Of a DNA stretch of 64,000 nucleotides, positions 1,521-34,981 are shown piece by piece. Below the pieces are notes generated by a model. It was given only the letters and a program-made list of their open reading frames with translations. It was not told where the DNA came from and searched no databases. The DNA is from Syntrophus aciditrophicus SB (GTDB lineage: Bacteria > Desulfobacterota > Syntrophia > Syntrophales > Syntrophaceae), in contig NC_007759.1 of the NCBI RefSeq assembly GCF_000013405.1, positions 372,001 to 436,000 of the forward strand, given 5' to 3'. The stretch's first letter is position 1. Each line of letters starts with the position of its first letter. The position numbers were made by a program, and so were the translations under genes.

Positions 1521-2480
1521 ATGAATGCTGATATCTTTGCGGAATGGCTGCGTCGTCAGGGATATAAAGTAGCTCGAACCCCTTCCAGCTACTGGTACGA
1601 AGCAAATGCGAAAGTCTATCAGGCCTTCCCCTATCACTGGGTCATTCAACCGAGTGAGGAGGAGCTGTCAGCCCTTCTGCGGCAAAATCAGGCCATCGCC
1701 CTGCGCTATTCCGCGCCGATTGACAACCCCTTGGGCTGCGTCAGCTATCATGCCGTAATCGACGAGCCCGGCTATGCCCTGGAAAAGCTGGATCGAAGAT
1801 CGCGGCAGAATATCCGCACGGGGCTGAAGAACTGTACCGTGGAGAATATTTCCCTGGAGCGTCTGGCGGAGGAAGGCTGGGAACTGGAGTCGGATACGGC
1901 CGACCGTCAGCAGAGGGAAATCGCCTCGAGCCAGGAAACCTGGCGCCGGCGGTATCTGTCCGCTGCGGACCTTCCCGGTTTCGAGGCGTGGGGAGCCTTG
2001 GTAAACGGCCGCCTGGTCGCGTCGCTTCTCGGCTTTCAATGCGGGGATTGCTTCGAACTCATCTCTCAGCAATGCCACCGGGACTTCCTGAACATCCGCG
2101 TCAATAACGCCGTGAGTTTCATTGCCACTCAGAACGTCAATAATCGGCCGGAAATTAAATCCATTTTCTATACGCTGCAGTCTCTCGACGCGCCGCCCAG
2201 TGTCGACGAATTCAAATTCCGGATGGGATATAGCGCCAAACCGCTGCGGCAGAGAGTGGTTTTCCATCCCTGGATACCCACTGAGGCAAATGGATTGACC
2301 CACGCCATTCTTGTGAAACTCCTGAAAAGAGATCCCAGCAGTCGCCTTTTAGCCAAGGCGGAAGGAATGCTCCGATTCTACCGCCAGGGTCTGCTGCCCC
2401 TCGCAGAGCAGGAATGGCCCGGCTGTCTGGCTGAGGCCAGAGAAAAAATCCTTCATCGTTCCTATGCGGACCAGGTCTGA
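1521..2480 (+). CDS. FemAB/GNAT-superfamily protein, paralogue of the gene at 11580
   Basis: This 319-residue soluble protein has no signal peptide or membrane segment. It shares a collinear set of blocks with the protein at 11580-12458: an N-terminal (F/W)L(M/R)RQG segment, SYWY or CYWY near residue 25, a middle GFEAWGA block, and a C-terminal QSLDAPxSxDxFKFRMG block. The fold looks like the GNAT/FemAB acyltransferases, which transfer acyl or aminoacyl groups from CoA or tRNA; the substrate cannot be read. The ATG at 1521 matches the paralogue's start (MNADIFAEWL versus MEPEVFSEFL), though its ribosome site is weak. Its position before the acyl-carrier cassette fits a role in decorating a sugar, but that is inference. 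Confidence 0.7.
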   Translation: MNADIFAEWLRRQGYKVARTPSSYWYEANAKVYQAFPYHWVIQPSEEELSALLRQNQAIALRYSAPIDNPLGCVSYHAVIDEPGYALEKLDRRSRQNIRTGLKNCTVENISLERLAEEGWELESDTADRQQREIASSQETWRRRYLSAADLPGFEAWGALVNGRLVASLLGFQCGDCFELISQQCHRDFLNIRVNNAVSFIATQNVNNRPEIKSIFYTLQSLDAPPSVDEFKFRMGYSAKPLRQRVVFHPWIPTEANGLTHAILVKLLKRDPSSRLLAKAEGMLRFYRQGLLPLAEQEWPGCLAEAREKILHRSYADQV

Positions 2481-2534: not shown

Positions 2535-3053
2535 ATGAAAGAATCAAGTAATTGCCAGATACCCTGCCTGCCTGAAATGGCTGAAGGGGAAGCAGCGGTC
2601 GGTCCGCAGCCTTTTATCATGGTTGTCAAAAGGAAGCTGGCCAAGCCGTGGAATTATTGTTTCAAGAACAGGCTGAAAAAATATTTTGCCTTCTTCCGCA
2701 AAGGGGGCGGTGCGCCTGTCGAGATAAACACGTCTTCCGGCTTGAAGGCGGGAGACCTTGTTCGTGTTCGCCCCCCTGAGGACATCAAGGGGTCGCTTGA
2801 TTCCTTTAATGAGCTCAAGGGATGCGCCTTTCTCGAATCCATGTGGCAATACTGCGGGACGACGCAACGGGTGCTCAAGCCCCTGGAGAAATTTCTGGAC
2901 GAGCGTGATTACAAGGTTAAAAAATGCAGAGGAATCGTCATTTTAGAGGGGGTCATCTGTAACGGCACCCCGGTCTTCGGCCGCTGCGACCGTTGCTGTC
3001 ATTTGTTCTGGAGAGAAGAGTGGCTGGAAAAGATCGGTGAATCAGAGAAATAA
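2535..3053 (+). CDS. Conserved hypothetical protein with Cys-rich C-terminal motif
   Basis: The protein has 172 residues. After a basic N-terminal half comes a GDLVRVR segment, which resembles the start of a small beta-barrel. Then follow MWQYCGTTQRVLK and a C-terminal block LEGVICNG...CDRCCHLFWREEWL. I recognise this pattern (MxxYCGxxxRV, then LEGVxCxG and a Cys/FWxExWL block) from uncharacterised proteins near glycosyltransferase and natural-product genes, but no function is known to me. Four or five cysteines in the C-terminal half could bind a metal. There is no signal peptide. It sits 95 bases before the acyl carrier gene and may be co-transcribed with it. The ATG at 2535 has no strong ribosome site, so the N-terminus is uncertain. 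Confidence 0.6.
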   Translation: MKESSNCQIPCLPEMAEGEAAVGPQPFIMVVKRKLAKPWNYCFKNRLKKYFAFFRKGGGAPVEINTSSGLKAGDLVRVRPPEDIKGSLDSFNELKGCAFLESMWQYCGTTQRVLKPLEKFLDERDYKVKKCRGIVILEGVICNGTPVFGRCDRCCHLFWREEWLEKIGESEK

Positions 3054-3148
3054 CGAATTCATTATTACAATGACTCCGCAGACCTGAAACGGAGGATAAA
3101 ATTCATTGTTCGAGACAGGCATGACCAATCGAATCAAGGAGGATGGAC

Positions 3149-3397
3149 ATGGTGGATAAACTGAAGATCCGGGAATTCATTCAAACGGAAATCATGAAGA
3201 AGGGGGATCTCTCCGGAGTGAAGGACTCGGATTCACTCATTGAATCCGGGATCATCGACTCCCTCGGCATACAGATTCTGCTGGAATACCTTGAAAAGTC
3301 ATTTTCCGTATCCATCAGCGATGATGAGCTGGTTCCGGAAAACTTCGAGTCAATTGACGCCATCGCGGAGTTCATCGGCAAGAAGCAGGCGGGTTGA
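3149..3397 (+). CDS. Acyl/peptidyl carrier protein
   Basis: This 82-residue acidic four-helix carrier protein contains the phosphopantetheine attachment motif DSLG in the context GIIDSLGIQ (Ser at about residue 38). The ATG at 3149 is preferred to the in-frame ATG at 3143, because the ribosome site AAGGAGG ends at 3142 and would abut the earlier codon. A stand-alone carrier next to an adenylating ligase and a flavin dehydrogenase is expected to hold the substrate as a thioester while it is oxidised. It would need a phosphopantetheinyl transferase encoded elsewhere. It is the first gene of the compact cassette running to 10241. Confidence 0.9.
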   Translation: MVDKLKIREFIQTEIMKKGDLSGVKDSDSLIESGIIDSLGIQILLEYLEKSFSVSISDDELVPENFESIDAIAEFIGKKQAG

Positions 3398-3463: not shown

Positions 3464-4474
3464 ATGACTGACAAGAAGAGCGTCTCATCATCAGCCGTGG
3501 GCATCGTCGCGATGGCCTGCTGTTTTCCGGAAAAGATTCTGCCGATAAGCGAGATCTGCCTGCAGGAAGGGATCGACCCCGACTTCATCCTTGAAAATGA
3601 ACTCGATATCGGACAGGTCCGTGTTTTTGAAGGGGAGTGGCGGTCGGATCCGGCGGTTGCCGCGGCGAAGGAGTGCCTGTCACGGGCCGGCCTGAAGCCG
3701 ACGGATATCGATGTGATCGTTGACTTCTCCGTTCTGCCGCAGGATTACGTGGTCCCCGCCTGGAGCATGAGCAATAAAATTCAGTATGATATCGGGGCCG
3801 AGCACGCATTCAATATCGGATTCGGCGGCGGAGGCGTCACGAATCTGCTGGCAGCCTTCAAGTTCGTGTCGGCGCTGATCAAGGCCGATGACGGCGTCAG
3901 AACCGCGCTGCTGATTGCCAGTGATGTATCCATCCCCCGGAACAGGGTCATCAATCCCGATCAGCCCATGACGATCCTCGGCGATGGCGCGAGCGCCCTG
4001 ATCGTGTCCGACAGCGCGGACGTTCTGGAAATCCTTGAAACCGAAATTTCTTCCGACAGCTCCAGGCACGATGTCTTCAACATCCCCGGCGGCGGTCTGG
4101 CACATCCGGACCGTATCGATCTGTATCGGGTGAAGATCGATCCCCTCAAATATTCGGTCTCTTCCTCTTTCGACGCCCTGAAGCAGCTGAGCCGCAAGGC
4201 CGCTGATCTGGCAGGAATATCTCTTGATGAAGTGAATCATTTCATCGGACCGAATATCTCCGGAAAAGATCAATCCCGGTTTGCAGAACTGTTTCATCTT
4301 TCCGACGCCGATCCGTTTGGAAAGAACAGGCGGCAGTATGGACACGTGCAGGCAACGGATCTTGTAATCAATCTCTCGGATTTTCTGGAGAAGCAGGCTG
4401 GGCGGATGAGGGAATTCGGGCTCGTGTGTTCCCATGGGTGGGGACATTCGAGTGGAGCAATGCTGATTAAATGA
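3464..4474 (+). CDS. KAS III-like protein lacking the catalytic triad (first of a pair)
   Basis: The length (336 residues) and layout match FabH-type 3-oxoacyl-ACP synthase III, including the AF...LL.ASD core and the C-terminal half with the GHVQ block. Aligned by eye to E. coli FabH, the nucleophile Cys112 position is Gly122 (in a GFGGGG run), the His244 position is Pro263, and the Asn274 position is His294 (GHVQATD instead of GNTSAAS). It is therefore unlikely to perform normal decarboxylative condensation. The family also contains non-condensing acyltransferases acting on carrier-bound pyrrole acids. It lies 66 bases after the carrier gene and 24 bases before its own paralogue, suggesting a heterodimer. 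The ribosome site is weak. Confidence 0.82.
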   Translation: MTDKKSVSSSAVGIVAMACCFPEKILPISEICLQEGIDPDFILENELDIGQVRVFEGEWRSDPAVAAAKECLSRAGLKPTDIDVIVDFSVLPQDYVVPAWSMSNKIQYDIGAEHAFNIGFGGGGVTNLLAAFKFVSALIKADDGVRTALLIASDVSIPRNRVINPDQPMTILGDGASALIVSDSADVLEILETEISSDSSRHDVFNIPGGGLAHPDRIDLYRVKIDPLKYSVSSSFDALKQLSRKAADLAGISLDEVNHFIGPNISGKDQSRFAELFHLSDADPFGKNRRQYGHVQATDLVINLSDFLEKQAGRMREFGLVCSHGWGHSSGAMLIK

Positions 4475-4498
4475 CCACGTGAATGAAGAGGAACGGAT

Positions 4499-5506
4499 AT
4501 GGATATTGGCATCCTGGCTGAGGCCTATTACCTCCCGCCGAGCAAAAAAAAGGTTCAGGACATATTGGACGCAGAGAACATTCCTTTCGGGACCTTCGCA
4601 AAAAATGTCGATTTCCGGCGTGACATAGGAATTGAAGAGGTCCACGTCACGGACGAAATGCCTTCGGAAGTGGCTGTGAAAACCGCAAAAAACGTTATTT
4701 CGAAAAGCGGGATATCCGGGAGTGAAATCGACCTCATCATTGATTTCACGAGTCTTCCTCAGGATTACATCGGTCCGACATGGTCGGCGGCCGGGCTTGT
4801 TCAGGAAGCGATCGGCGCGGATCGGGCTTTCTGCACGGCGCTCACGGTGGGGGGCTGCGCCAGTTATCATTTCGCGATGCGATCGGCCCTTGCCCTGATG
4901 CGCAGTGACGAAAAGATCAATACGGTTCTTCTGGTCGCGGGAGACAGAACCCCCGACCTCAACAAAACCTATTATCCCATAACCGTGGCCAGTGATGGAG
5001 GAGGGGCCCTGATTCTGAAAAAGGGATGCGACCGGGCCGTCATACTGGGCATTGAAACCATTTCGATCGGACGCCTGCACGACGTGTGGTATGTCCCGGG
5101 GCTGGGCAGGAAAAAGCCGGATGAAGAGGCATCGGAAACCCTGATCCATATGTACTGCAATATGAAAAAGTTCAATGAAGGAGTCATCATCAGGAATTTT
5201 TTCATGTTCAGGAAAGTCATCAACAAGCTGTTGAGCAGGATCGGCATGACCATGGATGACATCGATTATTTTGTTTATCCGACCTTCTCGACATGGGATC
5301 AGAAGTACTTTTGTGAAGCCTTGAATATTCCCCGGGAAAAAGTATCGACAGAGGGACTCCGTCACCGGGGACATGTTCAGGAAAGCGACATGGTGATCAA
5401 TTATGCCCGCGCTGTGGAAGACGGCGCCATCAAAAAGGGCGACATCGTCATGGTGGTTTCCAACGGTGCGGGTTTCGCGTGGTCCGCGGTCGTCGTCAGG
5501 CATTAG
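4499..5506 (+). CDS. KAS III-like protein lacking the catalytic triad (second of a pair)
   Basis: This 335-residue FabH-fold protein is clearly paralogous to its upstream neighbour. Both share SLPQDY, the 40-residue core between AF and the following Asp, and GHVQxxD. The position of the nucleophilic Cys is Val117; a Cys occurs three residues later (Cys120), one helical turn away. The His position is Pro261 and the Asn position is His292. The same Pro and His replacements in both paralogues point to a conserved new function rather than decay. Known split KAS III pairs such as PqsB/PqsC keep one intact active site; this pair appears not to. A ribosome site (AGAGGAACGG) precedes the ATG. Confidence 0.82.
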   Translation: MDIGILAEAYYLPPSKKKVQDILDAENIPFGTFAKNVDFRRDIGIEEVHVTDEMPSEVAVKTAKNVISKSGISGSEIDLIIDFTSLPQDYIGPTWSAAGLVQEAIGADRAFCTALTVGGCASYHFAMRSALALMRSDEKINTVLLVAGDRTPDLNKTYYPITVASDGGGALILKKGCDRAVILGIETISIGRLHDVWYVPGLGRKKPDEEASETLIHMYCNMKKFNEGVIIRNFFMFRKVINKLLSRIGMTMDDIDYFVYPTFSTWDQKYFCEALNIPREKVSTEGLRHRGHVQESDMVINYARAVEDGAIKKGDIVMVVSNGAGFAWSAVVVRH

Positions 5507-5570: not shown

Positions 5571-6230
5571 ATGTTTGAGTATACTCGCATGAGACTGATG
5601 CAGGCCCGCGAATTTGTCGCAACCAAGGGGCTGTCACAGTATTTCAGAGAAAGGGTATATGTTCAAAGAAAGGCGATCGCCGTCCGGAAAGATCTGGCGG
5701 AAGCCCGATTTACCGCTGACCTGTTCGAGCGCGGCGATGTCCGGTTTATCGAGGTCACTCCAGAGAATTCTTTCGAACGTCATGGCGGATATGTGGATGA
5801 AAGCCGGAAATTGAAGGCGTTGTATTACCTTGAACAGGGATATCGGGGTTACGCCCTTGTCCGAGGCAGAAATATCATCGGAGACATCTGGTATTATGCT
5901 CCTGATCAGGCGGGCTGTGCGCGTGTCCATCCTGATTTGTACTGGCTGGGAATCGAACTGGGGCCGGGCCAGGTGTATGAATTCGACATCTATTTCACGC
6001 CGGATGAAAGAGGGACCGGTTTATCCGCCGGTTTGCAGAACAGCGCCGGGTATTCGCAATGCCAGAAAGGATATTCTACTGCTTTTGCCTATTACTGGGC
6101 CGATAATGTGCCGGCGATCTGGAATACCCGGGTGATCAACAAATACAAAGAATGGAAGCATATTAAAGTCAGCCGCTGTTTTCTTTACCCAGGCAGTCTG
6201 CGATTACTGCTCCGGCAGCTGAACCTGTAG
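5571..6230 (+). CDS. GNAT-like acyltransferase in the carrier-protein cassette
   Basis: This 219-residue soluble protein carries a GNAT-type motif A, PDERGTGLSAGL (RGTG loop for the CoA pyrophosphate), near residue 145, after a hydrophobic YEFDIYF strand. The C-terminal segment AYYWADNVPAIWNTRV resembles the late helix and strand of acetyltransferases. The first 60 residues are basic and helical without a recognised domain. GNAT enzymes move an acyl group from CoA, or sometimes from a carrier protein, to an amine or hydroxyl. Here the donor could be the cassette's own carrier. The ribosome site GAAAGGA precedes the ATG at good spacing. A short terminator-like hairpin follows the stop at once. 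Confidence 0.65.
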   Translation: MFEYTRMRLMQAREFVATKGLSQYFRERVYVQRKAIAVRKDLAEARFTADLFERGDVRFIEVTPENSFERHGGYVDESRKLKALYYLEQGYRGYALVRGRNIIGDIWYYAPDQAGCARVHPDLYWLGIELGPGQVYEFDIYFTPDERGTGLSAGLQNSAGYSQCQKGYSTAFAYYWADNVPAIWNTRVINKYKEWKHIKVSRCFLYPGSLRLLLRQLNL

Positions 6231-6250: not shown

Positions 6251-6338
6251 CCGTATTCTGTCGGCTGTGGCAAATGCCGGGGCTTCGGTTTGCTGGACTG
6301 TTGTCGCCGATGAACTGAATCGAATAAGGGGGATATCC

Positions 6339-7340
6339 ATGAATCGCAAGAACGTTCCGATGGTCGCGAACAGAAAAGGCTCTTTGCCACGAGTCTATGG
6401 AGATACGCCTTCGTTCCTGGGGGTCGATGTCGTTGACATCAATCGCCTTGAGAAGGGCAGGGACGTGATCTTCTCCGGGGTGCCCTGGGAAGGAACGGTG
6501 ACCTGGGGGTCTTTTTCGGGCTGCGAGCTCGCGCCGCGGGCAATCCGGCACAGCGCGGCGCGATACGGCGGATTTCTGCCGGAATACGAGCTGGATTTCT
6601 TTGACTATCTGACTGTCGCAGATGCCGGGGATGTGTCCGTTGATCCGAACAGTCCGGAAAAAACGATGAACAACATCTATTCTTCCATGGACAGGATTTA
6701 CGGGAAGGGAAGCATTCCAGTCACGGTAGGCGGCGATCATTCCATTACCCCGCCCATTGTGGATGCCCTAGGCAACAACGCGAAGGGCCCTATCGGCATT
6801 CTTCATTTCGACGCTCATCTGGACAACGCGAAGGTTTTCGGTGAAGATCTGTTCGCCCGCTGCAGTCCCCTGCATCGCATCGCCCAGAATGAAAAAGTGA
6901 GAACGGAAAGCATCGTTCATATCGGCATTCGGGGGCCGAGAAATTCTCCCTCCCAGTTGGAGTATGCCTGGCAGATAGGGGCGAGAGTCTTCAACATCCG
7001 GGAGATCAGAGAAAGAGGCATGACTTCGGTCATCGACGAAGCGCTCAGGATCGCGTCAAACCAGACTGAACATGTGTATGTGACAATTTGCAGCGACTGC
7101 ATTGACGCGTCCTTCAATCCCGGAGGCCCAGCGGATTTCAACGGCCTGTTTCCTCACGAATTGTTCTCGGCTCTCTACACGATCGGAAGGGCGGGGATAT
7201 CCGGTTTGGACTACGTGGAAGTCTATCCGATTCAGGACCCGAATTCGTTTTCTTCTCACCTGGCTTCCTGGGCGATCATCCATGCCCTCGTGGGGCTGGC
7301 CTCGGGAAAGAAAAAAAAGAGCGAAACGGCAACGGCCTGA
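6339..7340 (+). CDS. Agmatinase/arginase-family ureohydrolase with altered active site
   Basis: This 333-residue protein has the ureohydrolase fold signature: GGDHS (His134) and FDAHLDN (Asp158, His160, Asp162). The last metal-binding segment is changed. Where agmatinases read S-x-D-x-D, this protein reads T-I-Cys251-S-Asp253, so the first of the two bridging Asp residues is Cys. The catalytic His of the (S)HG loop also appears to be Arg174. Normal family members hydrolyse a guanidino group to urea and an amine through a di-manganese centre. The changes suggest another substrate or chemistry. The ATG at 6339 follows AAGGGGG. The C-terminus is short and basic. Location inside the carrier cassette argues for a biosynthetic, not catabolic, role. 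Confidence 0.8.
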   Translation: MNRKNVPMVANRKGSLPRVYGDTPSFLGVDVVDINRLEKGRDVIFSGVPWEGTVTWGSFSGCELAPRAIRHSAARYGGFLPEYELDFFDYLTVADAGDVSVDPNSPEKTMNNIYSSMDRIYGKGSIPVTVGGDHSITPPIVDALGNNAKGPIGILHFDAHLDNAKVFGEDLFARCSPLHRIAQNEKVRTESIVHIGIRGPRNSPSQLEYAWQIGARVFNIREIRERGMTSVIDEALRIASNQTEHVYVTICSDCIDASFNPGGPADFNGLFPHELFSALYTIGRAGISGLDYVEVYPIQDPNSFSSHLASWAIIHALVGLASGKKKKSETATA

Positions 7341-7481: not shown

Positions 7482-8627
7482 ATGGATTTTTCATTGACCG
7501 CCGAACAGATCAGATTCAAGGAATCCGTCGTGGAGTTCGCGCGTCGCGCCCTTAAAAACGAGGCGCTCGAACACGGCGACCCGCGGGAGTTTTACTGGGA
7601 AGGATGGCGCCGGTGCGCCGAATTCGGCATTCAGGGCATCGCGATGCCCAAAGCTTACGGGGGCCTTGAACTGGATCTGCTGACCTGCGTTCTCATCATG
7701 CAGGGGCTTGGCTACGCGTGCAGGGACGCCGGTTTGATCTTCTCCCTCAATACCCAGATCTGGACGTGTGAATGCCCCATCCTGAAATTTGGAACGGACG
7801 AGCAGAAAGAAAAGTATCTGGGGCGACTGATCAGCGGCTCCATCGTCGGCGGCCACGCCATGACGGAACCGGATTCCGGCTCCGATGCCTTCAGTATGAA
7901 GACCCGGGCGGTCAGGGACGGCGACAGGTACATTCTCAACGGGACGAAGATTTTTATCACCAATGCCCCCATCGCCGATATCCTTCTCGTCTTCGCCGTA
8001 ACGAACGAGCAGAAAAAATTCGGAGGCGTTTCCGCCTTCATCGTTGAAAAGGGATTTCCCGGATTCTCCGTGGGAAAGCCCTTCAGTCTCATGGGACTCA
8101 GGAGCTGCCCCATCGGGGAAGTCATCCTGCAGGACTGCGAGGTTCCCGCCGAAAACAGACTCGGGAGCGAGGGAGCGGGCTCGGCCATTTTCAATTCCGA
8201 AATGGAGCAGGAAAGGAGCTGCCTGTTCGCCTCCCAGCTCGGCGCCATGGAAAAGATCCTGGAGGATTGTGTGCAGTACGCGAAAGCGCGATCTCAGTTC
8301 GGGCAGCCCATCGGAGATTACCAGGCCGTATCCCATAAGATTGCGGACATGAGGGTCCGGATCGAACTGTCCCGGCTGATTCTCTATCAGGTGGCCTGGA
8401 TGAAGGCTTCCGGGAAACGGGCGCCCGTCGAATCTTCCATTGCCAAACTGTACGTCAGTGAAAGTTATGTTCAGACCTGCATGGATGCCCTTCAGATTCA
8501 TGGCGCCTATGGTTATTCCACGGAGTTTCCCATCGAGAGGAATCTCCGTGATTCCATCGCCGGAAAAATCTATTCCGGAAGCTCCGAGATTCAGAGAAAT
8601 ATCCTGGCAAGCTTTCTGGGGTTATAG
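7482..8627 (+). CDS. Acyl-CoA-dehydrogenase-type flavoprotein (carrier-bound substrate likely)
   Basis: At 381 residues this is a full-length acyl-CoA dehydrogenase with the N-terminal helical domain, the GGHAMTEPDSGSD flavin/substrate strand near residue 125, and the C-terminal helical domain with QFGQPIG and QIHGAYGY. The usual catalytic Glu in the YEGT motif is Ser365 (YSGS). Instead Glu244, in MEQERS, falls where isovaleryl-CoA dehydrogenase has its base. Pyrrole-forming prolyl-carrier dehydrogenases belong to this superfamily too. Sixteen bases separate it from the adenylating ligase, so the two are surely co-transcribed. The expected role is FAD-dependent alpha,beta-oxidation of an aminoacyl group held on the carrier at 3149. 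GGGAGGG precedes the ATG. Confidence 0.85.
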   Translation: MDFSLTAEQIRFKESVVEFARRALKNEALEHGDPREFYWEGWRRCAEFGIQGIAMPKAYGGLELDLLTCVLIMQGLGYACRDAGLIFSLNTQIWTCECPILKFGTDEQKEKYLGRLISGSIVGGHAMTEPDSGSDAFSMKTRAVRDGDRYILNGTKIFITNAPIADILLVFAVTNEQKKFGGVSAFIVEKGFPGFSVGKPFSLMGLRSCPIGEVILQDCEVPAENRLGSEGAGSAIFNSEMEQERSCLFASQLGAMEKILEDCVQYAKARSQFGQPIGDYQAVSHKIADMRVRIELSRLILYQVAWMKASGKRAPVESSIAKLYVSESYVQTCMDALQIHGAYGYSTEFPIERNLRDSIAGKIYSGSSEIQRNILASFLGL

Positions 8628-8642
8628 CGGAGGGGATAAAGA

Positions 8643-10241
8643 ATGCCGAACCACCTACTGCACCATCAACTGACCAATACGTCCTGGCGATGCCCGGAAA
8701 AAGAAGCGGTCATCGCCGTTGATCGGTCGATATCCTACCAGGAACTGGAGGAGCGGAGCAATCAGCTTGCCTCGGTCCTCATGCGCGCCGGTGTTCAAAA
8801 GGGAGACCGGGTCGGGATATTTCTTCCCAAGTCCATCGAATCCCTGATCAGCCTGTTCGCTATTCTGAAAAACGGCTCCACTTATGTTCCCATCGATCCC
8901 AGGCTGCCTTCCGGCAGAATAGAGTACATTCTTCAAAATTGCGACATCGCGTGCATGATTTCCTCCTCCGCAACGTTGAAGAAAGTCCTGGCGGATTTGA
9001 GCGATGACCTTGCCCTGAAAAAGGTCATTCTTACCGACTGGGATGGGGATGAAAACGAAAAGCCGGAGGGACATCCGCAATTCATCCCCTGGACGAGCAT
9101 CAGGGATGAGGATGGACAGAGGAATCCGGGACCGGACATCGCCGATGTCAATCCCGCCTACATCCTCTATACATCCGGATCGACGGGCACCCCCAAGGGG
9201 GTGGCCATCTCCCACTTGAATTCCCTCACGTTCGTCAATATGGCCGCTGAATATTTCGGCATCGATACTCCGGACAGGCTGGCGAGTTTCGCCCCCCTTC
9301 ATTTCGATCTGTCGATCTTCGACATTTTTACCGCGGTCCGTCAAGGGGCCTCCATTGTCCTCGTCCCTGAATTTTATTCCACGTTTCCGATAAGACTCGC
9401 GGAATATATCGATAAACAGCGCGTCACCGTCTGGAATTCCGTTTCTTCCGTCCTCATCATGCTCGTGGATATGGGAAAGCTCGAGAAGTGCGGCTTTGAA
9501 ACGCTCAGGCTCATTCATTTTTCCGGTGACATTCTTCCTCCCAGATACCTCCGGGAATTGAAAAGTCATATGAAAAACGCGGACTTCTACAATATCTACG
9601 GCCAGACCGAGGCGAACTCGTCCATGTGTTATCACATCGGCGCCGTTCCGCCGGGTGATCACTGGAAAATCCCCATCGGCAAACCGTTTCCCAATTTTGA
9701 AGTTTTCGCGGTCAACGAGGATGGGCGGAAAATATCCTCGCCCGGCCAGGAGGGTGAACTTTACGTCAAAAGCTCCACGGTTGCCGTCGGGTACTGGAAT
9801 GACGGAGAAAGAACGAAGGAGCGATTCACTTCCAATCCCCTGGATCCGGCTGACGCGTCACGATGCTATAAAACAGGCGATATTGTAAAACTGGATGACA
9901 AAGGAAATTTTGTCTTCGTGGGGCGCAAAGACTCCATGGTGAAGAGCAGGGGGTACCGCATCGAGCTCAATGAAATCGAAATCATTCTGAACGGCCATCC
10001 CCTGGTGAGACAGGCCGTGGCCGTCGCGGCGCCCGATGAAAAAATAGGCCACCTAGTGGTCGGTTTCGCGTCGCTCGTTGAAGGAGAATCCCTGTCGGAA
10101 ATCGATCTCCTTCGTTACTGTCAGGATCGTCTGCCCAAATACATGGTTCCGGAATCGATTCACTTTTTGAAGCGCCTTCCGACGACGTCGTCGGGAAAAG
10201 TGGACCGGAAAGCGATGGAAAAAGAGGCGCTGGAAGGGTAG
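8643..10241 (+). CDS. Amino-acid adenylating ligase (prolyl-carrier-ligase/DltA type)
   Basis: This 532-residue stand-alone adenylation enzyme shows the NRPS-type core motifs in order: YTSGSTGTPKG near residue 175, HFDLSIFDI (Asp222, the residue that usually binds the alpha-amino group), NIYGQTE, YKTGD, GRKDSMVKSRGYRIE, and the C-terminal SSGKVDRK with the catalytic Lys. Asp222 makes an alpha-amino acid substrate likely. The layout matches enzymes that load proline or D-alanine onto a free-standing carrier. I cannot assign the amino acid from the sequence alone. It should activate the substrate with ATP and load the carrier encoded at 3149. GGAGGGG precedes the start. Its stop is followed within 15 bases by a glycosyltransferase gene. 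Confidence 0.85.
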   Translation: MPNHLLHHQLTNTSWRCPEKEAVIAVDRSISYQELEERSNQLASVLMRAGVQKGDRVGIFLPKSIESLISLFAILKNGSTYVPIDPRLPSGRIEYILQNCDIACMISSSATLKKVLADLSDDLALKKVILTDWDGDENEKPEGHPQFIPWTSIRDEDGQRNPGPDIADVNPAYILYTSGSTGTPKGVAISHLNSLTFVNMAAEYFGIDTPDRLASFAPLHFDLSIFDIFTAVRQGASIVLVPEFYSTFPIRLAEYIDKQRVTVWNSVSSVLIMLVDMGKLEKCGFETLRLIHFSGDILPPRYLRELKSHMKNADFYNIYGQTEANSSMCYHIGAVPPGDHWKIPIGKPFPNFEVFAVNEDGRKISSPGQEGELYVKSSTVAVGYWNDGERTKERFTSNPLDPADASRCYKTGDIVKLDDKGNFVFVGRKDSMVKSRGYRIELNEIEIILNGHPLVRQAVAVAAPDEKIGHLVVGFASLVEGESLSEIDLLRYCQDRLPKYMVPESIHFLKRLPTTSSGKVDRKAMEKEALEG

Positions 10242-10255
10242 GAGGAATTCAACCC

Positions 10256-11590
10256 GTGCGTATTCTTGAAATCGGCATGTTCTATGAACCGGATCTCGGC
10301 CCCGGCGCTCCCCTGTGCACGATGCTCAGCAGAGAGCTGGCCAGTCTGGGGCATCAGGTCACGGCTCTCGCCGCGGTGCCGCATTATCCAACCGGACAGG
10401 TTCAGAGAGCGTTCCGCGGCAGATGGCTCCGGACGACGGTTGAAGACGGGGTCGAGGTGGTGCGGGTTGGGCTTCCTTCGGTAAACCGGGCCGATCTCGT
10501 TCAGCGTTTTACCCAGTTTTTCTGCTATCAGGTGGGAGCCGCCCTGTCGGGACTGACCAAGAGATATGACGTTGTTCTCGCGGCGAATCCCTTTCTGATG
10601 GTGTGGCTTCCCTTTGCGCTGCTGGGAGCCCTGAAGCATAAACCGATCGTCTATATCGTACAGGATTTATATCCTGATGTCGGCATCAAACTGGGGGTCT
10701 TCAAAAACCGGTTCGTAATCAGCGCCGCAACCGCCCTGGAACGCTATTGCCTGGTGAATTCCGATGTCGTTCACATCATTTCCGATTCATTCCGGCCCAG
10801 CCTGCGCGCGCTCGGCGTATCAGACGACAAGATGGCCCTGGTGTACAACTGGGTCGATACCGATTTGGTCCGTCCCTTGCCCCGGAATAATGCATTCGCT
10901 CAGGAACATGATTTAGGGGGTCGATTCGTAATTCTCTATGCGGGAAATATCGGGTTTTCCCAGGATCTGGACAAGGTCCTGGATGCCGCCCAGGCTCTCG
11001 CGGATCAGGATGAAATCCTGTTCCTGTTCATCGGCGACGGGGTGGGGCGGGAACCTCTGATCGCGGACGCGAAAAAGAGGCGGCTGACGAATGTGAAGTT
11101 TCTGCACTACCAGCCGCGGGAACGGCTGCCGGAAGTGCTGGCTTGCGCGGATGTTTCACTGGTCATTCTGCGCGAGGGAATCGGTACGGCCTCTGTACCA
11201 TCGAAGGCTCTTTCCATCCTGGCAAGCGGCAGGCCGATGGTGGCCAGTGTGGACGAAGGAAGCGACCTCTGGAATCTCGTGAAGGAAGCCGAGGCGGGGC
11301 TGTGCATCCCTCCCGGCAGTTCGAACGATCTTGTCCAGGCTATCCTGACCCTCAAGCAGGACAAGGACCTGCGGGAACGTCTGGGGAACAACGGGCGGAC
11401 CTGGGCAGAAAAGCATCATTCCCCCCGGGTCGCCGCGAGAAGGTTCGAAAGTTTATTGCGGCAAGCCATTGCATGCAAAACGCGTGATGGCATCTGCCCG
11501 GCGAAAGCGTCAACTGAGCGGTCATCTTTGATTTCAGGCAGCCAAAACGAAATCGATGGTCTTAACCGAGGTGGAAAAGATGGAACCTGA
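10256..11590 (+). CDS. Glycosyltransferase, GT4 family (WbuB-like)
   Basis: This 444-residue cytosolic GT-B enzyme has an N-terminal Rossmann domain beginning EIGMFYEPDLGPGAP and a C-terminal nucleotide-sugar domain with YAGNIGFSQDLDKVLDA and PSKALSILASGRPMVA. The PSK variant in place of the usual EX7E is seen in WbuB-type L-fucosamine transferases. The start is GTG at 10256, preceded by GGAGGA. The gene directly follows the adenylating ligase and overlaps the next gene slightly, so the carrier cassette and this transferase appear to share one transcript. It probably adds one sugar to the lipid-linked repeat unit. The last 30 residues are low-complexity and may be a poorly conserved extension. 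Confidence 0.85.
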   Translation: MRILEIGMFYEPDLGPGAPLCTMLSRELASLGHQVTALAAVPHYPTGQVQRAFRGRWLRTTVEDGVEVVRVGLPSVNRADLVQRFTQFFCYQVGAALSGLTKRYDVVLAANPFLMVWLPFALLGALKHKPIVYIVQDLYPDVGIKLGVFKNRFVISAATALERYCLVNSDVVHIISDSFRPSLRALGVSDDKMALVYNWVDTDLVRPLPRNNAFAQEHDLGGRFVILYAGNIGFSQDLDKVLDAAQALADQDEILFLFIGDGVGREPLIADAKKRRLTNVKFLHYQPRERLPEVLACADVSLVILREGIGTASVPSKALSILASGRPMVASVDEGSDLWNLVKEAEAGLCIPPGSSNDLVQAILTLKQDKDLRERLGNNGRTWAEKHHSPRVAARRFESLLRQAIACKTRDGICPAKASTERSSLISGSQNEIDGLNRGGKDGT

Positions 11591-12458
11591 AGTGTTTTCT
11601 GAATTTCTGATGCGGCAGGGTCATCATGTGGTCAAGACGGAAAGCTGCTACTGGTATGATGCTCAACCGGGTTTTTACTTCTATTTCCCGTACCACAGAC
11701 TGATCAATCCGGGACAAGATGAACTGGACCGGATTTTCTGGGGGCAGCGAAGCATAGGCGTGAGATTTTTTGCGCCGATGGATTGTGTCGGAAAAGAAAG
11801 CTACTCGATCATGTGCTCCGACAAGCATTACGACATTACGTCGGTGGACGCAAAGTATGCCAGGCGCCAGACGCGGCGGGGGCTGGAAAGCTTCGAGATT
11901 CGAACATTGCCCTTCAGGGACCTGGCCACATTGGGCAACCCCTTGAACCATGACACCCTGTCCCGGCAGGAGCGCGATCCCGGCGCCTGGAACGAGCAGA
12001 AATGGCGGGAGTATTGTGAAGCGGCTGACGGTCTGGAGGGCTTTGAAGCATGGGGGGCGTTTTCGGACAAATCGCTGGCATCGTTCATGGTCACTTTCCA
12101 GATGGAGGATGTGTTCACGATCCTCCATCACAGTTCGGCAACGGAGTATCTGCGCTTTTATCCCAACAATGCGCTGGTCTATTTTGTGACCCAACTCAAG
12201 CTTTCGCAGCCGGATGTCCATGCCGTCTCCTATGGCCCTCAATCGCTGGATGCACCGGAATCCCTGGATACGTTCAAGTTCCGGATGGGTTTTCAGAAAA
12301 TGCCGATGAAGCAGGCCATTGTCTTTAATCCTCTGATCAGGCCGTTTATCTGCGGACCCTTTCATAAAGCGGTTCAACTGGCCGCCCAGGCCAGACCAAA
12401 AAGTGATACGTTCAGAAAACTGGAGGGCGTTCTCCGGTTTTATCTTGAAGCCTCCTGA
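11580..12458 (+). CDS. FemAB/GNAT-superfamily protein, paralogue of the gene at 1521
   Basis: The ATG at 11580 gives 292 residues, starting inside the last codons of the upstream glycosyltransferase, an arrangement that suggests translational coupling. GAGGTGG precedes it. The protein is collinear with the product of 1521-2480: shared RQG...CYWY near residue 20, GFEAWGA in the middle and QSLDAPESLDTFKFRMG near residue 230. The most likely role is an acyl- or aminoacyl-transferase of the FemAB/GNAT fold; substrates are unknown. The two paralogues bracket the carrier cassette, so they may act on the same glycan or on its product. Confidence 0.7.
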   Translation: MEPEVFSEFLMRQGHHVVKTESCYWYDAQPGFYFYFPYHRLINPGQDELDRIFWGQRSIGVRFFAPMDCVGKESYSIMCSDKHYDITSVDAKYARRQTRRGLESFEIRTLPFRDLATLGNPLNHDTLSRQERDPGAWNEQKWREYCEAADGLEGFEAWGAFSDKSLASFMVTFQMEDVFTILHHSSATEYLRFYPNNALVYFVTQLKLSQPDVHAVSYGPQSLDAPESLDTFKFRMGFQKMPMKQAIVFNPLIRPFICGPFHKAVQLAAQARPKSDTFRKLEGVLRFYLEAS

Positions 12459-27266: not shown

Positions 27267-28418
27267 ATGGACTGGCGCATAACGCTTTCCGACATCGACA
27301 TGGGAAATGAAGAAATCGAGGCGGTGGATCGCGTCCTCCGCAGCAAATGGCTCACCATGGGATCGGTAACGCAGGAATTCGAGAAAGCGGTCGCCGACTA
27401 CGTGGAGGCAAAGCATGCCGTCGCGGTCACCAACGCCACGGCTGCCCTGCATCTTGCCTGCGTGGCGGCGGGGCTGGGGCCGGGGAAAGAGGCGATTGTC
27501 CCTTCGCTGACGTTCGTCGCCACGGCAAACGCGGTCCGTTACACGGGCGCCTCCGTTGTCTTCGCGGATATCGCCGGGGAACAGGACCTGAACATTTCGG
27601 TCGAGGCGATCGAGCGGTCCGTGACGGAAAGGACCCGCGCCATTGTGGTCGTCCATTACGGCGGGTATGCCTGCGCCATGCCCGCGATTCTGGAGTTGGC
27701 TCGGCGGCACAACCTGGCTGTGATCGAAGACGCGGCTCACGCGATCGGCTCCGAACTGCAGGGGAAAAAGCTGGGCGCCTGGGGAGACGTGGGATGCTTC
27801 AGCTTTTTTTCCAACAAGAACATGACCACGGCGGAAGGGGGAATGCTGGTGACCAGTGACGACGCCCTCGCCGAAAGGCTCCGCCTGCTCCGGTCCCACG
27901 GAATGACCACCCTGACGCTGGACCGCCACAAAGGGCACGCGTGGAGCTACGATGTGGTTGATCTGGGATACAATTACCGCATCGATGAAATCCGCTCGGC
28001 GATGGGCCTTGTGCAGCTCGGCAGACTGGACAGGAACAATCGCCGCCGCCGGGAATTTACGCGGCTCTATCGCGAGTTGCTGCGGAATGAAGCGCCGCAG
28101 GTCACTCTGCCGTTTTCCAGTCACCCGGGAGTATCGGCCGCGCATCTCATGCCGATCCTGCTGCCGCCGGGTGCGGACCGTCTCCGCTTCATGGAGCACA
28201 TGAAGTCTCGGGGCATCCAGACCAGCATCCATTACCCGCCGATCCACCGGTTCAGCGCCTATCGGGAAGAGGGTGATGCGCAGAGGATAAAACTGCCGAT
28301 TACGGAAGAGGTCGCCGCGAGAATTGTCACACTGCCGTTGTATCCCACGATGACGGACGAAAACGTGCTGGAAGTGGTTAGCTGTGCCGCTGGAGGGATC
28401 CTGCCGAAGGGATGCTGA
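27267..28418 (+). CDS. DegT/DnrJ/EryC1 sugar aminotransferase (LegC/PseC-like)
   Basis: This 383-residue PLP enzyme shows NATAALHLA near residue 50, EDAAHAIGSE (the PLP-pyridine Asp) near 155, and FFSNKNMTTAEGG with the Schiff-base Lys near 185. It should transaminate the 4-keto-6-deoxy sugar made by the dehydratase to a 4-amino sugar nucleotide. The ATG at 27267 is used; an upstream open frame overlaps the previous gene. No NeuB-type synthase is present in the window, so the pathway probably stops at a 4-amino-4,6-dideoxy sugar here. A broken copy of its last 60 codons is found at 31579. Confidence 0.87.
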   Translation: MDWRITLSDIDMGNEEIEAVDRVLRSKWLTMGSVTQEFEKAVADYVEAKHAVAVTNATAALHLACVAAGLGPGKEAIVPSLTFVATANAVRYTGASVVFADIAGEQDLNISVEAIERSVTERTRAIVVVHYGGYACAMPAILELARRHNLAVIEDAAHAIGSELQGKKLGAWGDVGCFSFFSNKNMTTAEGGMLVTSDDALAERLRLLRSHGMTTLTLDRHKGHAWSYDVVDLGYNYRIDEIRSAMGLVQLGRLDRNNRRRREFTRLYRELLRNEAPQVTLPFSSHPGVSAAHLMPILLPPGADRLRFMEHMKSRGIQTSIHYPPIHRFSAYREEGDAQRIKLPITEEVAARIVTLPLYPTMTDENVLEVVSCAAGGILPKGC

Positions 28419-28419
28419 A

Positions 28420-31400
28420 ATGAAAGCAACAAGATATTTCCTCGCCGTGCTGGCCGCCCTGTTCGCTTTTTCCGGATTTTTCGCGCCGGCAGTTCTGGCC
28501 GCCGAGACCGTAACTGCCGTGCTGGAGCGGATTACCCTGACCTCGGAGTTTTCACCGCCCAGTCCCGATCCCGCGGGGATCGTCTATCTTTCGGACTACA
28601 ACACCCTGCTGATCAGTGACTGTGAAGTCGACGAGATGCCTCCCTACTTCACGGGGAAAAATCTCTTTGAAGCGACTCTGGGAGGGAGCCTGCTGGGCAC
28701 GCTGACGACGACCTCCTTTTCAGACGAACCCACCGGGGTCGCCTACGATCCTTCCACCAGACGCCTGTTCGTCAGCGACGACAACAAGGGACGGATCTGG
28801 ATCGTGAAGCCGGGAGACGACGGGGTTTACAATACGGAAGACGATGTTCTCACCAATTTCCGGACTTCCTCGTTCGGGATTGTGGACCCCGAAGACGTCG
28901 TATTTGACAGTTGGCGGGATCATCTGGTTGTCATAGACGGCACGGGGGAAGAGGTCTGGGATATCTCTCCGGGTGCCAACGGCGTTTTTGACGGCGCTTC
29001 GGGTGATGATCAGGCAAGCCACTTCGATACGGAGGCTATGGGAATTCATGATCCGGAGGGGATCGCCTTCGATACGAACAACGGCCATCTGTATCTGCTG
29101 AGCAGCAAATGCGACAGGATCGCGGAGACCACCATCAGTGGGACCTTAATCCGCTACATTGATATTTCCCGTCTCAAGTCCTCATACGCTGCCAGCATGT
29201 GCGCCGGTTTGACCTATGCGCCCTCCAGCAGCACTTCCGGCAAAATGAACCTCTACATGGTCACCCGCGGCGTGGACAACGGAGCAGATCCTTACGAGAA
29301 CGACGGCCGGATTTACGAGATATCCTTCCCGCCACTGGAGCCCTCGGACAATCTGGCTCCGGTGGTGAATGCGGGAGCAGATCAGACGATCACGTTTCCC
29401 GGCAGTGCAGCCCTTGCCGGCACGGCTTCGGACGACGGCCTGCCCAGTCCGCCCGCGACGCTTACCTATTCCTGGAGCAAAGTCAGCGGGCCGGGGACGG
29501 TGACCTTCGGCAGCGCCTCTTCGCTTGCGACGACGGCGAGCTTCTCGGCAGCGGGGACTTACACCCTGCGCCTGACGGTCTCCGACAGCGCTCTGTCGTC
29601 GAGCGACGACATAGTCGTGACGGTGAACGACAGTGGGGGGACAGAACCCCAGAGCTTCTCCGTGCGCGTTTCGGCTGGCAGCGACGATGCGGAAGAGTTT
29701 ACCGCCTCGAACGGCTGGATATATCTCACCGGCAATGATCTCGAACTGATTCATGACAGTGAAGATCAGATTGTGGGCATGCGTTTCAACAGCATCCCCG
29801 TTCCGGCAGGGGCAACGATTCTCGATGCCCGCGTTCAGTTCACGGTCAAGGACGCCACAACCGGGGTCTGCAGCCTGGTGATTCGAGGGGAGGCTGCAGA
29901 CCATGCCACGACCTTCACCACAACCCGCTACAACATCAGCAGCCGGCTGCTCACTTCCGCCGCGGTGAACTGGACTCCCGCGGCCTGGACCGCGGTGGGC
30001 GCAGCGGGTCCGGACCAGCAGACCCCCAATCTGAGCTCTATCCTGCAGGAGATCGTCAGCCGTCCCGGCTGGCAGTCGGGCAACAGCCTGGCGCTGATCG
30101 TCACAGGCTCAGGCACGCGAACCGCCTCCGCTTATGAGCGTTCGGCGAGTCAAGCGCCGCAGCTCCTGGTCACATATTCGACCTCATCCCAGCCCACAAA
30201 TCAGATGCCTGTTGCCAACGCACAGTCGGTGTCGACAGCCGAGAATATGGCGAAAGCGATTACCCTGACGGGCAGCGACCCGGATGGGGATTCACTGATC
30301 TACAGTGTGGTGACAGCCCCGGCACACGGCACACTGAGCGGAACGGCGCCAAATCTGACGTACACGCCGTCTTTCAACTACAGTGGTTCGGACAGCTTCA
30401 CCTTCAAGGTGAATGACGGCACGGCGGATTCGGCCCCGGCGACGGTTTCGATCACAGTGACGGAGGCGGCGAACAATCCGCCTGTTGCCAATGCACAGTC
30501 GGTGTCGACAGCCGAGAATACGGCGAAAGCGATCACCCTGACGGCTAGCGACCCGGATGGGGATTCACTGACCTACGTCGTGGTGACAGCCCCGTCACAC
30601 GGTACGCTGAGCGGAACAGCGCCTGATCTGACTTACACGCCGGCTTCCGGCTACAGTGGTTTGGACAGCTTCACCTTCAAGGTGAATGACGGCACGGTGG
30701 ACTCAGCCTCGGCGACGGTTTCGATCACGGTTACGGCGGTGAACGACGCACCGGTGGCTAACGCGCAGTCGGTGTCGACGGCTGAGGATACGGCGAAAGC
30801 GATTACCCTGACGGGCAGCGACCCGGATGGAGATTCTCTGACCTACAGTGTGGTGACATCCCCGTCACACGGTACGCTGAGCGGAACAGCGCCTGATCTG
30901 ATCTACACGCCGGCTTCCAACTACAGTGGTTCGGATAGTTTCACCTTCAAGGTGAATGACGGCACGGTGGACTCATCCCCGGCGACGGTTTCGATCACGA
31001 TTACGGCGGTGAACGACGCACCGGTGGCTAACCCCCAATCTGTAACGACTCCCGCAAATATGTCGACAACGATCACTCTGACGGGCAGCGATCCGGATGG
31101 CGATAAGCTGACCTACAATGTGGTAAGCGGGCCGACACAAGGCACGCTGAGCGGGTCAGCCCCCAACCTGATCTATACGCCGGCATCGCCATACTATGTT
31201 GGACCGGACAGTTTTACATTCACTGTCAATGACGGCATGATTGGATCGACCCCGGCCACGGTTTCGATCACGATCACTGCACCGGTGAATTCGGCACCGA
31301 TCGTCAATGCGGGCATTGATCAAACCATCATACTTTCCGCCAGTGCCTACCTTAACGGGTCAGCCACGGACGACGGACTGCCCAACCCACCCGCGATGCT

Positions 31401-31575
31401 CACTTACACCTGGAGCAAGGTCACGGGACCGGGCACAGTAACTTTCGAAAACACCTCGTCGCCTGTCACAACAGCAACGTTTTCCAAGGGGGGAGGCTAC
31501 ACGCTGCGGTTGACCGTTTCGGATGGTGACCTGTCATCCAGTGATGATATCGCGGTGAATGTCAGAAGGAAATAA
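28420..31575 (+). CDS. Giant secreted beta-propeller/PKD/cadherin-like protein (first copy)
   Basis: The protein has 1051 residues. It contains a Sec signal peptide (cleavage near residue 27), a beta-propeller-like domain to about 310 (DEPTGVAYDPSTRRLFVSDD, DPEGIAFDTNNGHLYLL), and a PKD/REJ-type domain at about 314-400 (APVVNAGADQTI). A DNRLRE/CBM-like domain follows at about 409-590 (ILDARVQFTVKD). Four cadherin-like Ig repeats of about 90 residues then start near 594, 686, 775 and 864 (GSDPDGDSL, GTLSGTAP, YSGSDSFTFKVNDG). A final PKD domain starts near 957. The protein is acidic and probably calcium-stabilised and extracellular. No PEP-CTERM or LPXTG signal is seen. The ATG lies one base after the aminotransferase stop, so the two are in one operon. 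Role unknown; adhesin or matrix protein is likely. Confidence 0.85.
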   Translation: MKATRYFLAVLAALFAFSGFFAPAVLAAETVTAVLERITLTSEFSPPSPDPAGIVYLSDYNTLLISDCEVDEMPPYFTGKNLFEATLGGSLLGTLTTTSFSDEPTGVAYDPSTRRLFVSDDNKGRIWIVKPGDDGVYNTEDDVLTNFRTSSFGIVDPEDVVFDSWRDHLVVIDGTGEEVWDISPGANGVFDGASGDDQASHFDTEAMGIHDPEGIAFDTNNGHLYLLSSKCDRIAETTISGTLIRYIDISRLKSSYAASMCAGLTYAPSSSTSGKMNLYMVTRGVDNGADPYENDGRIYEISFPPLEPSDNLAPVVNAGADQTITFPGSAALAGTASDDGLPSPPATLTYSWSKVSGPGTVTFGSASSLATTASFSAAGTYTLRLTVSDSALSSSDDIVVTVNDSGGTEPQSFSVRVSAGSDDAEEFTASNGWIYLTGNDLELIHDSEDQIVGMRFNSIPVPAGATILDARVQFTVKDATTGVCSLVIRGEAADHATTFTTTRYNISSRLLTSAAVNWTPAAWTAVGAAGPDQQTPNLSSILQEIVSRPGWQSGNSLALIVTGSGTRTASAYERSASQAPQLLVTYSTSSQPTNQMPVANAQSVSTAENMAKAITLTGSDPDGDSLIYSVVTAPAHGTLSGTAPNLTYTPSFNYSGSDSFTFKVNDGTADSAPATVSITVTEAANNPPVANAQSVSTAENTAKAITLTASDPDGDSLTYVVVTAPSHGTLSGTAPDLTYTPASGYSGLDSFTFKVNDGTVDSASATVSITVTAVNDAPVANAQSVSTAEDTAKAITLTGSDPDGDSLTYSVVTSPSHGTLSGTAPDLIYTPASNYSGSDSFTFKVNDGTVDSSPATVSITITAVNDAPVANPQSVTTPANMSTTITLTGSDPDGDKLTYNVVSGPTQGTLSGSAPNLIYTPASPYYVGPDSFTFTVNDGMIGSTPATVSITITAPVNSAPIVNAGIDQTIILSASAYLNGSATDDGLPNPPAMLTYTWSKVTGPGTVTFENTSSPVTTATFSKGGGYTLRLTVSDGDLSSSDDIAVNVRRK

Positions 31576-34700: not shown

Positions 34701-34981
34701 CCACAACCCGCTACAACATCAGCAGCCGGCTGCTCACTTCCGCCGCGGTGAACTGGATTCCCGCGGCCTGGCCTGCGGTGGGCGCAGCGGGTCCGGACCA
34801 GCAGACACCCAACCTGATCTCTATCATACAGGAGATCGTCAGCCGTCCCGGCTGGCAGTCGGGCAACAGCCTGGCGCTGATCGTCACAGGCTCAGGAACG
34901 CGAACCGCCTCCGCTTATGAGCGCTCGGCGAGTCAGGCGCCGCAGCTCCTGGTCACGTATTCGACCTCGACCGCGCCATAA
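31766..34981 (+). CDS. Giant secreted beta-propeller/PKD protein (second copy)
   Basis: The protein has 1071 residues from a TTG start; the first copy has ATG at the same spot. The signal peptide and beta-propeller (to about 305) are nearly identical to the first copy. After that the architecture differs: PKD domains near 310 and 409, a DNRLRE/CBM-like domain near 508-690, PKD domains near 692 and 791, and a second DNRLRE-like domain near 889-1071. The cadherin-like repeats are absent. The block from about 32990 to 33840 is almost repeated from 34133 to 34981, so one internal module has been duplicated again. It is probably extracellular, with the same general role as its neighbour. It ends the amino-sugar operon. 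Confidence 0.85.
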   Translation: MKATRYLLAVLAALFAFSGFFEPAVLAAETVTAVLERITLTSEFSPPSPDPAGIVYLSDSNTLLISDCEVDEMPPYFTGKNLFEATLGGSLLGTLTTTSFSNEPTGVGYDPSTRRLFVSDDDEGRIWIVKPGSDGVYNTADDILASFRTSLFAIADPEDVVFDSWRGHLVVIDGTGEEVWDISPGANGVFDGASGDDQASHFDTEAMGIHDPEGIAFDTNNGHLYLLSSKCDRIAETTVSGTLIRYIDISRLKTSYGAKMCAGLTYAPSSSITGKMNLYMVTRGVDNGADPYENDGRIYEISFPPLGPSNNVAPVVNAGPDQTITLPGSAVLAGTASDDGLPNPPATLTYSWITVSGPGTVTFGSASSLASTASFSSAGTYTLRLTVSDSALSSSDDVVVTVQSSTSTNLAPVVNAGADQTITLPGSAALAGTASDDGLPNPPAALTYAWSTVSGPGTVNFGSASSLTTTASFSSAGTYTLRLTVSDSVLSSSDDVVVTVNDSGGTEPQSFSVRVSAGSDDAEEFTSSNGWIYLTGNDLELIHDSEDQIVGMRFNSIPIPAGATILDARVQFTVKDATTGACSLVIRGQAADHATTFTTSRYNISSRLLTSAAVNWIPAAWPAVGAAGPDQQTPNLSSILQEIVSRPGWQSGNSLALIVTGSGTRTASAYERSASQAPQLLVTYSTSTTPANSAPVVNAGADQTITLPGSATLAGTASDDGLPSPPAALTYAWSTVSGPGTVTFGSASSLATTAGFSSAGTYTLRLTVSDSVLSSSDDLVVTVQSSTSTNLAPVVNAGADQTITLPGSAALAGTASDDGLPSPPATLTYSWSKVSGPGTVTFGSASSLATTASFSAAGTYILRLTVSDSVLSSSDDVVVTVNDSGGTEPQSFSVRVSLGSDDAEEFTASNGWIYLTGNDLELIYDTQVQIVGMRFNNIPIPNGATILDARVQFTVKDATTGVCSLVIRGEAADHATTFTTTRYNISSRLLTSAAVNWIPAAWPAVGAAGPDQQTPNLISIIQEIVSRPGWQSGNSLALIVTGSGTRTASAYERSASQAPQLLVTYSTSTAP

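Follow-up and report, generated by a model that had tools for sequence, protein, structure and literature searches.

A conserved pair of KAS III-like proteins in Syntrophus aciditrophicus, one with a predicted Cys-His-Asp triad of the CerJ/ChlB3 type

Two adjacent genes for KAS III-like proteins lie in a 64,000-nucleotide stretch of the Syntrophus aciditrophicus SB genome (NC_007759.1, positions 372,001 to 436,000; hereafter, the window). A sequence-only reading had concluded that both proteins lost the Cys-His-Asn triad of FabH in the same way, which raises the question of what reaction such a pair might catalyze and with which residues. Both open reading frames were intact where that reading had located them, encoding proteins of 336 and 335 amino acid residues (P1 and P2, respectively; Table 1), and its description of two adjacent KAS III paralogues held. 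KAS III models matched both proteins; P2 scored above the Pfam cut-offs and P1 slightly below them (24.8 bits against 26.6 bits and 23.7 against 24). The identity between P1 and P2 was 32%.

Table 1. Positions in the window of P1, P2, their key residues, and the associated genes
Feature	Position	Strand	Family match
First of two paralogues flanking the gene run	1521..2480	+	no Pfam/NCBIfam match
Acyl/peptidyl carrier protein, 84 aa, probable acyl donor	3143..3397	+	Pfam PP-binding, 22.9 bits
P1, KAS III-like putative partner subunit without nucleophile (Val125), with Pro263, His294, and Asp299	3464..4474	+	
P1 Val125 codon, FabH-nucleophile position	3836..3838	+	
P1 His294 to Asp299, inside GHVQATD	4343..4360	+	
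P2, KAS III-like catalytic subunit (predicted) with Cys120, His292, and Asp297	4499..5506	+	
P2 Cys120 codon, predicted nucleophile	4856..4858	+	
P2 His292 to Asp297, inside GHVQESD; predicted His-Asp pair of CerJ/ChlB3-type triad	5372..5389	+	
219-aa protein, possible tailoring transferase	5571..6230	+	no Pfam/NCBIfam match
Arginase/agmatinase-family ureohydrolase, in the same gene run	6267..7340	+	Pfam Arginase, 222.7 bits
Acyl-CoA-dehydrogenase-family enzyme closest to prolyl-carrier dehydrogenases	7482..8627	+	
Stand-alone amino-acid adenylating enzyme, altered pocket DLFNHSISSK	8643..10241	+	
Second paralogue flanking the gene run	11556..12458	+	no Pfam/NCBIfam match

The FabH nucleophile position was located in P1 and P2 by using nine FabH references from the phylum of the window (ten FabH-like references were considered, and L024 was excluded by a motif filter), each at three gap settings, giving 27 pairwise local alignments. 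Cys120 of P2 fell on the FabH Cys column in 26 of these alignments and in all four MAFFT modes. HMMER also matched it to the active-site Cys of the A. aeolicus FabH, both when P2 was used alone and when a 17-sequence profile was used. The central helix in the AF2 model of P2 comprises residues 121–136 and thus begins directly after Cys120, placing the predicted nucleophile at the helix N-terminus; the Cys itself was present in 9/9 P2 orthologues. The pairwise alignment of P1 was poor around the FabH Cys, with Val125 on the column in 6/27 alignments, a gap in 19/27, and other residues in 2/27; all four MAFFT modes placed Val125 there. In a model of P1 and P2 in tandem, the corresponding helix of P1 begins at residue 126, directly after Val125, so that the P1 of the window has no nucleophile at this site.

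As judged from the alignments and the model, Cys120 of P2 occupies the FabH nucleophile position. The assignments in the sequence-only reading, Gly122 in P1 and Val117 in P2, are at odds with these results. The same applies to the suggestion that Cys120 is a nucleophile relocated by one helical turn; since Cys120 is already at the normal position according to both the alignments and the helix start, a relocated nucleophile is unnecessary. The missing nucleophile of P2 was a false alarm, an alignment slip that arose because a one-residue insertion upstream of the Cys was missed in the hand alignment. The loss of Cys-His-Asn was correctly noted for the Cys of P1 and for the His and Asn of both proteins, but P2 keeps its Cys. 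The sequence-only reading had made its case depend on there being no Cys at the nucleophile position, and P2 has one there by sequence and helix position.

At the other two triad positions, the alignments agreed with what had been claimed: the FabH His is replaced by Pro263 in P1 and Pro261 in P2, the FabH Asn is replaced by His294 and His292, respectively, and the motif GHVQxxD is common to both proteins. An Asp residue follows this His at +5 (Asp299 and Asp297). P2 thus reads C-P-H and P1 reads V-P-H at the three positions of the FabH triad. We ruled out a canonical FabH pair because the FabH His and Asn are absent from both proteins. A His in place of the FabH Asn, combined with an Asp at +5, was found in P1, P2, and all complete orthologues.

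This arrangement has a published counterpart. In the accessible part of PMC9573744, the triad of ChlB3 is given as Cys113-His296-Asp301, and that of CerJ as Cys116 and His295 plus an Asp, with C116A, C116S, and H295N each abolishing CerJ activity. Cys120, His292, and Asp297 of P2 match C113, H296, and D301 of ChlB3 and C116 and H295 of CerJ by position and spacing. Judged by sequence, P2 carries a complete triad of the known CerJ/ChlB3 type, and P1 is a nucleophile-less partner keeping the His-Asp pair. The motif of P2 was also aligned by HMMER with GHLGGGD of DpsC, a protein reported with Ser instead of Cys (PMC9573744, in the same part of the text). Five relatives from the phylum (L002, L003, L005, L007, and L008) have Cys, a non-His residue, and GHFGxxD at the three positions, indicating that Cys-His-Asp also occurs in other KAS III-like proteins of the phylum.

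The AF2 model of P2 (pLDDT 87, pTM 0.90) has the KAS III/thiolase fold. VIA-align ranked ChlB3 first (Z 37.1, rmsd 2.6, 315 aligned), followed by DpsC (37.0), NatS (36.6), PqsC (36.0), and a Xanthomonas FabH/OleA entry (36.0); matches within 1 Z are ties, and the lead of ChlB3 and DpsC over PqsC, OleA, and FabH is near that margin. Foldseek E-values ranked FabHs first for this model. The argument for the CerJ/ChlB3 type is carried by the motif, not by fold rank. The tandem model, an artificial read-through fusion of P1 and P2 (680 residues) built from a thin alignment of 12 sequences (the window and 11 other rows, with five P1 rows shortened at their C-termini), had a mean pLDDT of 76 and a pTM of 0.83, and thiolase-fold chains matched both of its halves. 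Such a pTM is high for a two-domain chain and suggests that P1 packs against P2 in a defined way, which counts as support for an assembly rather than proof of it.

When the P1-P2 alignment was used to scan genome contigs, nine loci were obtained. One of them (L041; 22% identity and no P1) was set aside as a non-orthologue. In 8/8 of the other loci, P1 immediately preceded P2 on the same strand; these loci belong to Mesorhizobium sp. Root554 (L033), one Rhodothermales MAG, and six verrucomicrobial MAGs, so that the sample is small and six of its members are closely related. In a maximum-likelihood tree, the P1 group (92/93) and the P2 group (100/99) were joined as sisters (100/100), and organisms were arranged in broadly the same order within both clades; the connection to the FabH side brings long branches together, and the branch of the window P1 is itself long (1.14 vs 0.22 for P2). 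The idea in the sequence-only reading of a conserved pair centered on a shared His, which probably forms a heterodimer, drew support from the strict pairing and the sister clades; its premise that both members had lost the whole triad was not supported.

Cys120 was invariant in P2 (9/9, including the window), and the His and Asp residues were kept in 9/9 P1 and 8/8 complete P2 sequences. The residue at the nucleophile position of P1 was V, C, A, S, A, S, S, S, and S in the window and L033 to L040, respectively. The dN/dS of P1 was 0.04–0.15 over 10 pairs of verrucomicrobial sequences; this purifying selection indicates that P1 is functional. The P2 gene of L040 was interrupted after YPT (10780–10960) with the GHLQ region out of frame, which represents a broken gene or an assembly error. 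P1 matches were present in 123 of 297 genomes of the window's phylum at E ≤ 1e-10, and among these 297 genomes none outside its own exceeded 80 bits. P2 was rare: among 60 near relatives, only its own genome had a match at E ≤ 1e-20, and among the 236 genomes covered for the verrucomicrobial class, only that of L037 had one at E ≤ 1e-40. Two scans of viral contigs revealed no relatives of P1 or P2.

Among KAS III pairs in which one member is degenerate, PqsBC is the best analogue. It is described in the available text of PMC4807248 as a heterodimer of FabH-like paralogues, one with Cys and one degenerate, in which PqsC keeps the FabH His and has lost the Asn, and PqsB has lost all three residues. 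Unlike in PqsBC, the FabH His is Pro in P1 and P2, and both proteins keep His-Asp at the Asn position. Membership in the PqsBC family was ruled out on these residues (Pro261 at the FabH-His position of P2; His294-Asp299 kept in P1). The AmcF-AmcG pair of cispentacin biosynthesis is a KS-like heterodimer whose partner is described as having no functional motifs, and it differs from P1-P2 in belonging to the type II KS-CLF class, not KAS III, and in using a 2-oxoglutaryl starter (PMC10698177, accessible part). ChlB3 and CerJ resemble P2 in the KAS III fold, the Cys nucleophile, the His at the FabH-Asn position, and the Asp five residues on. ChlB3 is reported to be homodimeric, whereas here a conserved second gene encodes what would be a partner without Cys. 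In the open-licence literature, we found no report of a heterodimeric CerJ/ChlB3- or DpsC-type pair.

The surrounding genes point to an acyl group derived from an amino acid. The carrier gene was the only carrier match in the window; it scored 45 bits against the AmcB model, below the cut-off of 80. A second carrier was sought across the window and was not found, and a local second-carrier acceptor is thus not visible. The best PDB match of the dehydrogenase was the prolyl-ACP dehydrogenase 4irn (E 4e-129), and its NCBIfam PigA score was 437 bits, under the equivalog cut-off of 500. The pocket region of the adenylating enzyme was closest to the L-prolyl-carrier ligase 6o6e (E 4.6e-33). The two paralogues flanking the gene run shared 104 identical residues over 290 aligned and are possible final transferases. 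Glycosyltransferases are encoded in the surrounding window. The arginase-family gene sits between the KAS III pair and the dehydrogenase gene, and tblastn detected no counterpart of it at the other loci with the pair. A 172-aa Cys-rich protein with no family match is encoded at positions 2535–3053, immediately upstream of the gene for the carrier.

Similar genes accompany the pair in other organisms. A relative of the dehydrogenase was present in 7/8 pair genomes at E ≤ 1e-60; at E ≤ 1e-110, it was present in 6/8 pair genomes compared to 2/235 other genomes of the verrucomicrobial class; the class as a whole had it in 3/236 genomes, one being a pair genome. The adenylating enzyme had a relative in 7/8 pair genomes, and the one pair genome that had neither was that of L039, a 2.6 Mb MAG. 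A carrier gene occurred in the window and in 7/8 other pair loci. Some verrucomicrobial genomes (L057 and L058) had carriers near both P1-P2 and the adenylating enzyme, and two carriers fit with a carrier-to-carrier step. A Trp_halogenase-family flavoprotein gene followed P2 in 7/8 other loci; Mesorhizobium instead had a B12/radical-SAM gene (TIGR04190, 409 bits, cut-off 500) with a carrier gene upstream of it. Two genes downstream of the Mesorhizobium pair, positions 12107–13696 of L033 encode a cysteinyl-tRNA-synthetase-family protein (tRNA-synt_1e, 331 bits).

The proline pocket code of this adenylating class is DLFYLALVCK. This code was found in L056, L058, and L059, and its nine positions DLFYLALVC were found in L062, which is cut; L057 and L061 had the near-proline pockets DVFYLALVCK and DLLYNALVCK, respectively. 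The adenylating enzyme of the window and its Mesorhizobium relative (L060, DIFQFSIDVK) did not have the proline code. These pockets suggest that the acyl group in the verrucomicrobial and Rhodothermales loci is likely pyrrole-2-carboxyl and that the window and Mesorhizobium enzymes may load an amino acid other than proline; because their pockets differ from the proline code, the acyl group is uncertain in the window.

We consider it probable that P1 and P2 form a heterodimeric acyltransferase with the KAS III fold, of the CerJ/ChlB3/DpsC type, which uses a carrier-bound, dehydrogenated, pyrrolyl-like amino-acyl group. The adenylating enzyme would probably load an amino acid onto the carrier, and the dehydrogenase would probably oxidize it in the carrier-bound form. 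In the verrucomicrobial relatives, this would most likely convert proline to the pyrrole-2-carboxyl group, and in the window perhaps another amino acid would be used. Cys120 of P2, activated by His292-Asp297 as the base, would then take the acyl group from the phosphopantetheine of the carrier to form an acyl-enzyme; by analogy, ChlB3 and CerJ take the acyl group from a thioester. Finally, the acyl group would be handed to an acceptor, which may be a second carrier or an amine or hydroxyl of a sugar or glycan. CerJ is reported to acylate a sugar hydroxyl, and CloN2 and ChlB3 are reported to use a second carrier. As the other half of a FabH-like dimer, P1 would probably shape the pocket or dock the carrier or the acceptor. 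The computed results establish the pairing, the residue identities, the fold, and the co-occurrence; from these, the heterodimer, the donor, the acceptor, and acyl transfer in place of condensation are inferred.

CloN2 is KAS III-like and encoded by a single gene. It acts, as P1-P2 may, beside a proline-activating enzyme, a carrier, and an oxidizing enzyme. In the clorobiocin pathway, it is reported to move the pyrrole acyl group from the carrier CloN5 to the carrier CloN1, after which CloN6 methylates the group and CloN7 transfers it (PMC11218499, in the accessible text).

The main rival, which we regard as rather unlikely, is that P1-P2 is a DpsC-like condensing enzyme, in which the acyl group on Cys120 would react with a malonyl-carrier to form a C-C bond and P1 would resemble a chain-length factor. 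DpsC acts in starter-unit condensation for daunorubicin, has the GHxxxxD motif and fold in common with P2, and was the second-best fold match; it differs in having Ser for Cys, and we know of no partner subunit for it. It is described as Claisen-condensing in the available text of the ChlB3 paper (PMC9573744), and KS-like heterodimers with a degenerate partner do condense (PqsBC, PMC4807248; AmcF-AmcG, PMC10698177; accessible parts of both). The FabH His and Asn, which handle malonyl decarboxylation, are, however, absent from both P1 and P2, and no ketoreductase, dehydratase, or malonyltransferase was recognized among the scanned proteins of the gene run.

Also unlikely is a reading in which P1 and P2 each form a homodimer and act one after the other as separate enzymes. 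The invariant His-Asp of P1, together with Ser or Cys at the nucleophile position in 6/9 sequences, would allow active P1 sites in some lineages, but adjacency and gene order were strict in 8/8 loci, the P1 and P2 trees match, P1 has lost its nucleophile in three cases (V in the window and A in both L034 and L036), and the pTM of the tandem model favors an assembly. Because this His-Asp pair is invariant under purifying selection without a conserved nucleophile, it may instead form a second, non-covalent site in P1; the resulting two-site relay, with Cys120 of P2 carrying the acyl group and the His of P1 activating the acceptor or second carrier, is an improbable elaboration. If true, catalytic labor would be divided between the two subunits of a KAS III heterodimer, and in several phyla this enzyme would attach dehydrogenated amino-acyl groups to glycans of the cell surface or to small molecules. 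Very improbable is the sequence-only reading's proposal that both proteins are nucleophile-less, with a new active site on the shared His and a relocated Cys120, since the shared His and the change of the FabH His to Pro are real but Cys120 is at the normal position and the arrangement of a His and a +5 Asp has already been published for CerJ/ChlB3 (PMC9573744, accessible part).

CerJ/ChlB3-type acyltransferases are known from antibiotic pathways. The locus presents a known triad in a new two-gene form, and the pair is real and conserved. If the heterodimeric CerJ/ChlB3-type acyltransferase proposed here is correct, the acyltransferase branch has also given rise to KAS III pairs in which one member is degenerate, and such a heterodimer would span organisms from Mesorhizobium to Verrucomicrobia and would lie here within a large polysaccharide-type locus. 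It would also signal a family of as yet unstudied pathways that handle proline-like acyl groups bound to carriers; a search of the open-licence literature found no report of a polysaccharide-linked prolyl-carrier pathway. Judged by eye from the list of open reading frames, the window contains further polysaccharide-type genes, and positions 28384–31575 and 31766–34981 encode adjacent long paralogues of 1063 and 1071 aa, respectively, with many repeated segments.
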